From Rhodospirillales bacterium (GTDB lineage Bacteria; Pseudomonadota; Alphaproteobacteria; Kiloniellales; JAKSDN01): a stretch of 43,724 nt of DNA. The stretch's first letter is position 1; every line of letters begins with the position of its first letter. Below the pieces are notes generated by a model. It did not search any database. It was not told the DNA's origin and saw nothing but the letters and a program-made list of their open reading frames with translations. This document shows, in pieces, positions 12,918 to 30,358 of this stretch. Position numbers and translations under genes: made by a program. The DNA is taken from assembly GCA_029859805.1 (NCBI GenBank), contig JAOUCL010000008.1, positions 1 to 43,724 on the forward strand, read 5' to 3'.

Positions 12918-14405
12918 ATGAAGATGCCGGAACCCGACGCCACGGTGCTCGCGCGCCGGCGCGAGATCGCCCGGGCGTTGAACGCCATCGTGCCCGGCGA
13001 GGGGGTGATCGCCGACCGGGACGAGCTCGCCGTCTACGAGAGCGACGGGCTGACCGCCTACCGGCAGCGGCCGATGGTCGCCGTGCTGCCCGAGACCGTC
13101 GAGCAGGTCAGCCGGATTCTCGCCTACTGCAACGCCGAGGGCATCAAGGTCGTGCCCCGCGGCGCCGGCACCTCGCTCTCGGGCGGCGCGCTGCCGCTGG
13201 CCGATGGCGTCCTGCTGTGCATGGCTCGCTTCAACCGCATCCTCGACATCGACTTTGCCAACCGCTGCGTCGTCGCGCAGCCCGGGGTCACCAACCTGGG
13301 CATCACCAAGGCGGTGGAATCGGAGGGTTTCTACTATGCACCCGACCCCTCCAGCCAGATCGCGTGCACTATCGGCGGCAACGTCGCCGAGAACTCGGGC
13401 GGGGTGCATTGCCTGAAGTACGGGCTCACCACGAACAACCTGCTCGGCCTGGAGATGGTGCTGATCGACGGCACGGTGGTGCGTTTGGGCGGCCGGCACC
13501 TGGATGCCGGGGGCTACGACCTGCTCGGGCTCATGACCGGCTCGGAAGGCCTCCTCGGCGTGATCACCGAGGTCACGGTGCGCATCCTGCAGGCGCCCGA
13601 GACCGCGCGCGCCCTGCTGCTCGGCTTTCCGACCAACGAGGCCGGCGGCAACTGCGTCGCCGCGATCATCGGCGCCGGGATCATCCCGGGCGGCATGGAG
13701 ATGATGGACCGGGCGGCGATCCACGCCGCCGAGGACTTCGTCCAGGCCGGCTATCCGCTCGACGTGGAATCGCTGCTGATCGTCGAGCTGGACGGCCCCG
13801 AGGCCGAGGTCGACGACCTGATCGCGCGCATCTCGGCGATCGCCGCGAACTGCGGCGCCGTTACCAGCCGGGCCTCGGAAAGCGAGGAGGAGCGCCTCAA
13901 GTTCTGGGCCGGGCGCAAAGCCGCCTTCCCGGCGGTCGGCCGTATCTCGCCAGACTACTACTGCATGGACGGCACGATCCCGCGCCACCGCCTGCCCGAG
14001 GTGCTGAAGCGCATGGCCGAGATGAGCGCGCGCTACGGCCTGCGCGTCGCCAACGTGTTCCACGCCGGCGACGGCAACCTGCATCCGCTGATCCTCTACG
14101 ACGCCAACAATCCCGGCGAGCTGGAGAACGCCGAGGCCTTCGGCGCCGAGATCCTCAGGCTCTGCGTCGAGGTCGGTGGGGTGCTGACCGGCGAGCACGG
14201 CGTCGGCGTCGAGAAGCGCGACCTGATGGGCACCATGTTCTCCGAGGCCGACCTGGCCCAGCAGCAGCGGGTCAAATGCGCCTTCGACCCGGACTCGCTC
14301 CTTAACCCTGGAAAGATGTTCCCCGTGCTGCACCGCTGCGCCGAGCTCGGCCGCATGCACATCTCTCGCGGCCAGATCCCCTTCCCCGACCTGCCGCGCT
14401 TCTGA
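12918..14405 (+). CDS. glcD: Glycolate oxidase FAD subunit
   Basis: VVPRGAGTSLSGGALPLADGVLL, PDPSSQIACTIGGNVAENSGG, HAGDGNLHPLILYD, GEHGVGVEKRDLM. Confidence 0.95.
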   Translation: MKMPEPDATVLARRREIARALNAIVPGEGVIADRDELAVYESDGLTAYRQRPMVAVLPETVEQVSRILAYCNAEGIKVVPRGAGTSLSGGALPLADGVLLCMARFNRILDIDFANRCVVAQPGVTNLGITKAVESEGFYYAPDPSSQIACTIGGNVAENSGGVHCLKYGLTTNNLLGLEMVLIDGTVVRLGGRHLDAGGYDLLGLMTGSEGLLGVITEVTVRILQAPETARALLLGFPTNEAGGNCVAAIIGAGIIPGGMEMMDRAAIHAAEDFVQAGYPLDVESLLIVELDGPEAEVDDLIARISAIAANCGAVTSRASESEEERLKFWAGRKAAFPAVGRISPDYYCMDGTIPRHRLPEVLKRMAEMSARYGLRVANVFHAGDGNLHPLILYDANNPGELENAEAFGAEILRLCVEVGGVLTGEHGVGVEKRDLMGTMFSEADLAQQQRVKCAFDPDSLLNPGKMFPVLHRCAELGRMHISRGQIPFPDLPRF

Positions 14406-14468
14406 GGAACGCGAGATTTGAACCGGGTGCTATGGCATAGAAATAGGAGCGGATCGGGCCACTGAAGA

Positions 14469-14504
14469 CCTCCCCCCTTGCGCGGGAGGGTTTGGGTGGG
14501 GGGT
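14469..14504 (+). repeat. Left inverted repeat of the DUF559 unit
   Basis: CCTCCCCCCTTGCGCGGGAGGGTTTGGGTGGGGGGT; reverse complement matches 14861-14896 at 34/36 positions. Confidence 0.85.
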
Positions 14505-14530
14505 GAGGCTTGCGACGGTACGATTGAGCA

Positions 14531-14902
14531 ATGGCATCGAAAACGGCAAGACACTTGAGGAAGACCCCGACGGAGGCGGAGCAGAGACTCTGGTCGGTCC
14601 TGCGCCGCCGTCAGCTGGCGGGCGCCCGTTTTCGCCGTCAAGTGCCTCTAGGTCCCTACGTGGCCGACTTCGCTTGCTTCTCCCACCGTCTCGTCGTCGA
14701 GGTCGACGGCGGACAGCACAACCTGTCGCAGGCCCGCGACGGCAGACGCGCTCGGTGGCTGGAAAGCCAGGGCTATTGGGTGATCCGGTTCTGGAACAAC
14801 GAGGTGGACGGGAACCTGGAGGGCGTGACCGAAACGATTCGACTGGCGCTGCGCAACCATACCCCCCACCCTAACCCTCCCCCGCAAGGGGGGAGGGGAT
14901 AG
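14531..14902 (+). CDS. DUF559 (VSR/restriction-endonuclease-like fold) protein
   Basis: LRKTPTEAEQRLWSVLRRRQLAGARFRRQVPLGPYVADFACFSHRLVVEVDGGQHNLSQARDGRRARWLESQGYWVIRFWNNEV; C-terminus TPHPNPPPQGGRG encoded by the right repeat. Confidence 0.93.
   Translation: MASKTARHLRKTPTEAEQRLWSVLRRRQLAGARFRRQVPLGPYVADFACFSHRLVVEVDGGQHNLSQARDGRRARWLESQGYWVIRFWNNEVDGNLEGVTETIRLALRNHTPHPNPPPQGGRG
14861..14896 (-). repeat. Right inverted repeat of the DUF559 unit
   Basis: ACCCCCCACCCTAACCCTCCCCCGCAAGGGGGGAGG. Confidence 0.85.
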
Positions 14903-14925: not shown

Positions 14926-16149
14926 ATGACCGGGATCTTCAGGCCGGAGAATGCGGCGCAGGTCGTCGAGGCGGTCGCCTGGGCGGCGGCGGAGGAGGAG
15001 CCGCTCGAGGTGCTGGGCCGCGCCAGCAAGCGCGCGTTCGGCCGGCCGGTCCAGGCGGGCCACGGGCTCGAGCTCTCGGGGCTTGCCGGCATCACGCTCT
15101 ACGAGGCCGAGGAGCTGGTGCTCTCGGCGCGCGCCGGCACGCCCATCGCCGAGATCGAGGCGGCGCTGGCCGAGAAGAACCAGGAGCTGGCCTTCGAGCC
15201 GCCGGACCTGGGGCCGCTGCTGGGCGGCGAGGCGGGCGCCGGCTCGATCGGCGGCGTGCTGGCCTGCAACCTGGCCGGCCCGCGGCGCATCAAGGCCGGC
15301 GCGGCGCGCGACCACTTCCTGGGGGTTTCCGCGGTCTCGGGCCGCGGCGAAGCCTTCAAGTCCGGCGGCCGCGTGGTCAAGAACGTGACCGGCTACGACC
15401 TGTGCAAGCTGATGGCCGGCTCCTACGGCACCCTGGCGGCGATGACCGACGTCACGGTCAAGGTCCTGCCGGCGGCCGAGAAGACGCGCACCGTGCTGCT
15501 GCTCGGCCTCGACGACGGAAAGGCGCTCGCCGCCATGACCCGGGCGCTCGGCTCGGCCCACGAGGTCTCGGGCGCCGCCCACCTGCCGGCGGCGCTCGCC
15601 GCGGACTCGGAGGTCTCCTACGTGCGCGAGGCGGGCGGCGCGGTCACGGCGCTGCGCGTCGAGGGCACCGGCCCCTCGGTCGAGTACCGCTGCGCCGCGC
15701 TGCGCCGCGAACTGGCGGAATTGGGCGAGAGCGAGGAGCTGCACGACAGAAATTCCGCGGTCTTCTGGCAGGAGGTGCGCGACGTCCGGCCCTTCGTCAC
15801 CCGGCCGGAGCGCCTGGTCTGGCGGGTCTCGGTGCCGCCGCAGGCCGGCCCGGCGGTCGCCGGCGCGCTCGCCCAAGGCCAGGACGCGCTCGCCTACTAC
15901 GATTGGGGCGGCGGGCTCCTCTGGCTCGCCCTGCCGCCTTCGAAGGACGGCGGGCACGTGGGCCTGCGCGCGGCGCTTTCGGACTGCGGCGGCCACGCGA
16001 CCCTGGTCCGCGGGCCCGAGACGCTGCGCGCCGCGGTCCCCGTGTTCCAGCCGCAGGACCCGGCCATGGCGGCCCTGACCAGGCGGGTCAAGGACGGCTT
16101 CGACCCGCGCCGGGTCTTGAACCCCGGGCGCATGGTGGCGGGGCTCTGA
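14926..16149 (+). CDS. glcE: Glycolate oxidase FAD-binding subunit
   Basis: FRPENAAQVVEAVAWAAAEEEPLEVLG, GAGSIGGVLACNLAGPRRIKAGAARDHFLGVSAVSGRGEAFKSGGRVVKNVTGYDL. Confidence 0.94.
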   Translation: MTGIFRPENAAQVVEAVAWAAAEEEPLEVLGRASKRAFGRPVQAGHGLELSGLAGITLYEAEELVLSARAGTPIAEIEAALAEKNQELAFEPPDLGPLLGGEAGAGSIGGVLACNLAGPRRIKAGAARDHFLGVSAVSGRGEAFKSGGRVVKNVTGYDLCKLMAGSYGTLAAMTDVTVKVLPAAEKTRTVLLLGLDDGKALAAMTRALGSAHEVSGAAHLPAALAADSEVSYVREAGGAVTALRVEGTGPSVEYRCAALRRELAELGESEELHDRNSAVFWQEVRDVRPFVTRPERLVWRVSVPPQAGPAVAGALAQGQDALAYYDWGGGLLWLALPPSKDGGHVGLRAALSDCGGHATLVRGPETLRAAVPVFQPQDPAMAALTRRVKDGFDPRRVLNPGRMVAGL

Positions 16150-29600: not shown

Positions 29601-30358
29601 AATTCCAGGGACAGTATACTTATCTCTCGACACCCCCGCACCCCCGCGCTAACCTCGCCTCATGGCCCGTTTCGCCCGCGTCGTGGTTCCCGGCGTCCCG
29701 CATCACGTGACCCAGCGGGGCAATCGTCGGCTCGAGACCTTTTTCAATGACGGGGACTACCGCGCCTATCTGGACCTCCTGGCCGAATACTGCGCGGCGG
29801 CCGAGGTCGCGGTCTGGGCCTACTGCCTGATGCCGAACCACGTGCACCTGATCCTGGTGCCGCGGGACGAAGACGGCCTGCGCCGGGCCTTGGGCGAGGC
29901 GCACCGGCGCTACACCCGGCGGGTCAACTTCCGCGAGGGCTGGCGCGGCCATCTGTGGCAGGAGCGGTTTCATTCCTTTGCCCTGGACGAGGGCCATCTG
30001 CTGGCCGCGGCGCGCTATGTCGAGCTCAATCCGGTGCGCGCGAAGCTGAAGCGCCGGGCGCGGGACTGGCGCTGGTCGAGCGCGCGGGCGCACCTGGCGG
30101 GGCACGACGACGCCCTGGTCGCGGTCGCGCCGCTCCTGGAGCGGGTGCCCGACTGGCGGGGTTTCCTGGCCGGCGGCTTGGAGGAAGAGGCGCTGGAGGC
30201 GCTCCGCCGCCACACGCGCACCGGCCGCCCGCTCGGCAACCCGGCCTTCCTCGCGCGCCTCGAGGCCCGCCTCGGCCGGCGCTTGCGGCCCGGCAAGCCG
30301 GGGCCCAGGCCGAAGGGCGGCGAGGGTGGCGGGAGATAAGTATACTGTCCCCGGAATT
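29601..30358 (+). mobile_element. RAYT-type unit: Y1 transposase bounded by 26-nt inverted repeats
   Basis: AATTCCAGGGACAGTATACTTATCTC (29601-29626) and GAGATAAGTATACTGTCCCCGGAATT (30333-30358), 25/26 complementary. Confidence 0.88.
29662..30339 (+). CDS. REP-associated tyrosine transposase (Y1_Tnp/TnpA_REP)
   Basis: RVVVPGVPHHVTQRGNRRLETFFNDGDYRAYLDLLAEYCAAAEVAVWAYCLMPNHVHLILVP (HVH motif), HLWQERFHSFALDEGHLLAAARYVELNPVRA. Confidence 0.96.
   Translation: MARFARVVVPGVPHHVTQRGNRRLETFFNDGDYRAYLDLLAEYCAAAEVAVWAYCLMPNHVHLILVPRDEDGLRRALGEAHRRYTRRVNFREGWRGHLWQERFHSFALDEGHLLAAARYVELNPVRAKLKRRARDWRWSSARAHLAGHDDALVAVAPLLERVPDWRGFLAGGLEEEALEALRRHTRTGRPLGNPAFLARLEARLGRRLRPGKPGPRPKGGEGGGR

Follow-up and report, generated by a model that had tools for sequence, protein, structure and literature searches.

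The 43,724-nucleotide stretch of contig JAOUCL010000008.1 from a Rhodospirillales bacterium (the window) contains a small DUF559 gene that is enclosed by inverted repeats, and its neighbors are FAD-oxidase genes (glcD- and glcE-like) and an Fe-S glcF-like gene. This arrangement raises the question of whether the gene and its repeats form one mobile unit or are neighbors without any functional relationship. The region 14469-14896 (~430 bp) is, in our judgement, probably a mobile cassette in which one homing-type DUF559 nuclease gene is enclosed by two copies of its own REP-like hairpin in inverted orientation. The features of the region are as follows.

12918..14405, plus strand: glcD-like FAD-linked oxidase, the operon gene upstream, outside the cassette
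14406..14468, no strand: glcD-side intergenic sequence, congener-like for the first ~22 nt and divergent thereafter
14469..14504, plus strand: left REP-like unit, a hairpin CCTCCCCC-CTTGCG-CGGGAGG followed by a G-rich tail GTTTGGGTGGGGGGT directed toward the gene
14531..14902, plus strand: DUF559 open reading frame of 123 amino acids, a predicted PD-(D/E)XK/Vsr-like nuclease
14861..14896, minus strand: right REP-like unit, an inverted copy (34/36) that overlaps the 3′ end of the reading frame
14926..16149, plus strand: glcE-like FAD-binding subunit, the operon gene downstream, outside the cassette

The arms lie exactly where the initial annotation had placed them, around one DUF559 reading frame. 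They are 36 nt each, 94% complementary and separated by 356 nt, and no inverted repeat between 12.0 and 17.5 kb of the window is longer. Each arm consists of a hairpin and a tail, and both tails are directed toward the DUF559 gene. The right arm is also the coding sequence of the C-terminus, TPHPNPPPQGGRG, so that the protein ends in a REP-encoded tail, TPHPNPPPQGG; translation of the reading frame confirmed this part of the annotation. The real flanks align with a score of 64, and none of 2000 mononucleotide shuffles exceeded 32; the window contains exactly two matches to the repeat core pattern where 0.06 are expected, so that neither chance nor base composition explains the arms. No Rfam family and no PADLOC defense match was found at the window cassette. 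The source genome has a single DUF559 gene; the unit occurs in it at least 39 times at up to 3 mismatches, and a reversed control pattern gave 0. Eight other pairs of units in this genome are close doublets with spacers of 29–33 nt, in a geometry opposite to that of the cassette, with the tails pointing outward.

The window protein matches PF04480 (DUF559) with an E-value of 1.4e-40 and 138 bits against a cut-off of 20.6, over positions 4–108 of 109. The only other family matched in the profile search is MTES_1575, below its cut-off, and the search gave no Y1_Tnp match. An AlphaFold model of the protein has a mean pLDDT of 78. A structure search with this model returned NGO0050, a Neisseria DUF559 protein (3hrl), as the nearest structure, then the homing endonuclease I-Bth0305I (3r3p), with Vsr (1vsr) as a third and weaker match; profile searching gives the same first two structures. 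A restriction-endonuclease-like (VSR) fold is known for DUF559. Five residues, E17, D46, E57, D59, and H63, are invariant among 46 diverse family members and are all present in the window protein, and the modeled protein combines the core fold with the catalytic D...ExD...H residues of PD-(D/E)XK/Vsr-like enzymes. The best reading is that DUF559 is a homing-type nuclease whose nearest folds are I-Bth0305I and Vsr. The nearest experimental lead found is VsrA of Caulobacter, a DUF559 protein that is linked to a cytosine methylase and not to repeats, that causes an SOS response in cells without the ScmA methylase, and that is itself SOS-induced (PMC12907096).

The enclosure of DUF559 genes by REP-like units recurs across phyla. 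Packaging was assessed on 110 frames, which came from 60 relatives plus 192 genomes of the class. The score was that of an alignment between the upstream flank and the reverse complement of the downstream flank, with a cut-off of at least 40. By this score 62 of 105 alphaproteobacterial loci lie between inverted REP-like units, where ~6 are expected from mismatched loci. The sequence of the unit varies by lineage, with CCTCNCCC-loop-GGGNGAGG-nn-GGGTGAGGGG as a common form, and many frames have a C-terminal tail that is encoded by the REP, for example PHPNPPPQGG or PHPGPLPGGERE. A named multi-phylum set, drawn from GTDB genomes and viral contigs with one masked locus left out, gave 62 packaged loci of 82 against 0/503 controls; it partly overlaps the alphaproteobacterial set and contains a few apparent repeats (e.g., L258/L053 and L269/L106). 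These loci span Alpha-, Beta-, Gamma-, and Deltaproteobacteria, Chloroflexi, Gastranaerophilales, Binatia, and others. Co-occurrence of inverted repeats and an HPNPPPQGG-like tail with DUF559 was found far above controls.

A passive explanation is that REPs enter gaps beside small dispensable genes or act as terminators, so that flanking a DUF559 gene is meaningless. REPs are indeed multi-copy and intergenic, and a right arm at the 3′ end of the reading frame is in the place expected of a terminator, but the upstream arm cannot be a terminator of the DUF559 gene, and packaging is specific. On the same control stretches, 22 of 40 DUF559 genes and none of 211 neighbor genes are packaged (p = 5e-21). 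A separate hairpin count found hairpins on both sides at 52 of 103 DUF559 loci versus 0 of 677 placements, and on one side at 29 of 103 versus 15 of 677. Additionally, none of 26 ParE toxin genes is packaged, the repeat class varies with the nuclease family, and arms and genes are paired as cognates within genomes, as described below. Passive hitch-hiking is therefore strongly disfavored and, in our estimate, very unlikely. What counts against the cassette interpretation in these surveys is that ~40% of the alphaproteobacterial loci are without a strong inverted pair and that 22/103 loci have no recognizable hairpin.

Solitary small GIY-YIG nuclease genes are packaged as well (36/66), in repeats that differ from those of DUF559 and are CGTCATGCYCGGGCTTGACCCGRGCATCCA-like or CCTCATGCTGAGCTTGTCGAAGCATGAGG-like; a DUF559-like arm was found in only 2 of 39 cases. 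Genes of a WKIxLIE subfamily (L422, L392, L421, L408, and others) lie between inverted CGTC-type REPs, and those of a SRAKKEALI subfamily (L400, L420, L395, L394) lie between inverted CCTCATGCTGAGCTTGTCGAAGCATGAGG-like repeats. The CGTC REPs of Alphaproteobacteria are widespread and were reported in 2013 as apparently having no dedicated transposase (Di Nocera 2013, PMC3733652).

The window also holds, at 29601–30358, a RAYT/TIRYT-type Y1 transposase gene (domain 29704–30024) between its own 44-nt inverted ends, which contain GGGACAGTATACTTATCTC. It is one of six Y1_Tnp matches in the source genome, and such enzymes could be imagined to mobilize the DUF559-type REPs, with DUF559 as a passenger. 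A Y1_Tnp match is, however, missing from 41 of 70 DUF559 genomes, and RAYT genes have ends of another type, GGGGTCAG/GGGACAG, that differ from the DUF559 arms. RAYT-driven mobility of the DUF559 cassettes was rejected on these grounds, and we regard the passenger role as highly improbable.

Repeats and DUF559 also co-occur at the level of whole genomes, where repeat counts rest on pattern searches for which a reversed control pattern gave near zero. In the survey of 192 genomes, two or more REP pattern matches were counted in 32 of 45 genomes with a strong DUF559 match and in 10 of 146 without one (p = 2e-17); when only genomes of at least 3.3 Mb are considered, the figures are 28/36 and 5/46. 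Sister contrasts within families gave 12 for the association, 2 against, and 2 ties (p = 0.013). Some genomes have REPs without DUF559 (23 in G079 and 37 in G092), and the searched pattern is missing from 11 strong-DUF559 genomes, both of which count against the cassette interpretation. Arms that flank the same DUF559 gene match each other with a median score of 65, as compared with a median of 30 for arms of different DUF559 loci in one genome. Loci whose proteins share higher identity also have more similar arms (rho 0.56 within genomes; overall, Mantel rho 0.22 with p = 0.006). Where one genome holds several DUF559 genes, their repeats differ.

The E. coli homolog, ycjD, is matched in 3366 of 5426 complete genomes. 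In strain MC1061, where the gene order is sapF-ycjD-fabI (L436, 2880–3780), hairpins of the same type are found only downstream of ycjD, and other E. coli genomes carry an eefRABCD operon at the ycjD site. In a sample of 60 E. coli genomes the median number of further repeat places is 11 with ycjD and 3 without it (p = 8e-9), a comparison that is confounded by phylogroup. The repeat found in E. coli possibly belongs to Box C, a family listed in PMC2267715.

The initial annotation held that the cassette may move or be maintained like a RAYT/REP or homing unit, and all three of its computational checks support this: the tail co-occurrence given above, the presence of the repeat elsewhere in the genome in multiple copies, and an empty glcD-glcE site in relatives. 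DUF559 is absent from the junction in 11 of 11 relatives, seven of which have a compact junction, and the window gene is therefore a lineage-specific insertion, placed in an operon gap that is tolerant of such events. The junction of G012 holds a bare REP doublet, and that of G004 a single REP-like unit. No clean target duplication was found at glcD-glcE, where the congeners G001 and G002 (L145, L146) have an unrelated inverted repeat, CACAGAGGCACAGAGG, in the gap. This lack of a clean duplication counts against a cassette, as does the opposite geometry of the doublets.

Insertion is also seen at other sites. In six genomes with paralogous cassettes (G001, G032, G044, G136, G139, and G212), the paralogs share only 346–676 nt, which corresponds to the gene and its repeats, and the sequence outside is unrelated. 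Three cassettes from three families (L035, L036, and L049) are found at the identical nucleotide of the carB 5′ end, after ATCCTGATCATCGG, and a stretch of 42–45 nt from the carB start occurs twice around the cassette and once in empty sites. In the empty site of the congener G007 the two cassette flanks overlap over 44 nt, and both target copies in L036 are identical to the empty site of the congener G052. Judging from its sequence, the right end appears to provide carB with a new ribosome site and start codon in both L036 and L049. These three loci are the only ones with recognized target duplications, and many direct repeats around other cassettes are merely REP doublets. The DUF559 tree, built on 102 columns, requires at least 3 changes of the carAB label, which lends moderate support to repeated insertion at carB. 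Recurrent insertion at a conserved site and absence from close relatives, both expected of a homing element, are thus found at carB in three genomes, which do not include the glcD-glcE copy itself. Both this homing-like insertion and the resemblance of the modeled structure to a homing endonuclease go beyond what the initial annotation had claimed.

The same data bear on the possibility that DUF559 is a Vsr-like repair enzyme that tends the repeats by removing mismatches or cruciforms, and that stays close to them for this purpose and not in order to mobilize them. The Vsr-like fold fits such a role, as do the methylase-less SOS response caused by Caulobacter VsrA and its SOS induction (PMC12907096), and the link of VsrA to a cytosine methylase rather than to repeats counts against the cassette interpretation. 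A housekeeping enzyme, however, needs neither a location inside its substrate nor repeated insertion into operons, and here gene and repeats duplicate together and a single carB nucleotide was struck three times. A pure repair role is therefore considered unlikely.

For the mobile cassette two routes can be proposed. In a homing route, DUF559 would cut an unoccupied target, of which the carB site is an example, after which repair would copy the cassette in. In a REP-processing route, it would cut the hairpin or cruciform of its cognate REP before repair copies the cassette in, and both routes may be concurrent. The carB data and the fold favor the homing route; REP processing is favored by the cognate pairing and by the dispersal of repeats that lack a gene. 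The data show packaging, its specificity, co-occurrence, and insertion, and from these we infer that DUF559 cuts the target or the repeat and thereby spreads both. The gene-less REPs and doublets may be non-autonomous derivatives of the cassette, by analogy with the relation of REPINs to RAYTs. Joining the outer ends of a cassette would give the tail-hairpin-hairpin-tail order that is seen in the doublets, which could thus be end-joined derivatives. The DUF559 system probably functions like a RAYT/REP pair in which a hydrolytic nuclease replaces the tyrosine transposase, and the data suggest that a widespread class of bacterial repeats has in DUF559 its long-missing partner.

Few repeats are as common in bacteria as REPs. 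From these data two repeat superfamilies gain a specific enzyme partner, and a large domain of unknown function acquires a proposed role. Should the enzyme act on its own repeats, the ~430 bp cassette would be among the smallest mobile units known and the solo repeats of thousands of genomes would be explained; ycjD of E. coli K-12 makes this role testable. A wider generalization, which we hold tentatively and at slightly less than even confidence, is that REPs are generally made by dedicated small nucleases and not by tyrosine transposases alone. DUF559 would make the CCTCNCCC class, and two GIY-YIG subfamilies would make the CGTC class and a GAGCTTGTCGAAG-containing class, with each pair a minimal homing-like element that spreads by cut and repair. 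If true, a new mode of mobile DNA would exist throughout the domain Bacteria. No earlier report of DUF559-repeat packaging was found in the literature outside preprints and most subscription papers, and nothing relevant was found there on GIY-YIG with extragenic palindromes or on Vsr with REPs.

The DUF559 cassette resembles several known systems. It shares with REPtrons, in which GTAG REPs flank a RAYT (TnpA_REP) gene, and with REPINs a small enzyme gene between inverted hairpins, dispersed single repeats and doublets, and genome-specific enzyme-repeat pairs; the cognate pairing within genomes is likewise that of RAYT-REP pairs. The flanking REPs are inverted and genome-dispersed as in REPtrons, but the enzyme is PD-(D/E)XK/Vsr-like without a match to the Y1 transposase family, the arms have no GTAG tag, and the cassettes at carB have a target duplication of 42–45 nt. 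TIRtrons (TIRYT; Di Nocera 2013, PMC3733652) also feature a single enzyme gene with inverted repeats that are possibly dispersed, but they use a tyrosine transposase and their ends share GGGGWSAS; the example in the window at 29704–30024 has ends unrelated to the cassette. The CGTC-tagged REPs (PMC3733652) are widespread in the same bacterial class and reportedly have no dedicated transposase, but they are another repeat class and flank small GIY-YIG genes instead of DUF559. The EDxHD homing endonucleases (I-Bth0305I, 3r3p) and Vsr are alike in fold, active-site layout, and recurrent insertion at one site of a conserved gene, although DUF559 is free-standing between REP hairpins and no intron or intein was found. 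The nearest known kinds to the DUF559 cassette are REPtrons and homing endonuclease genes.
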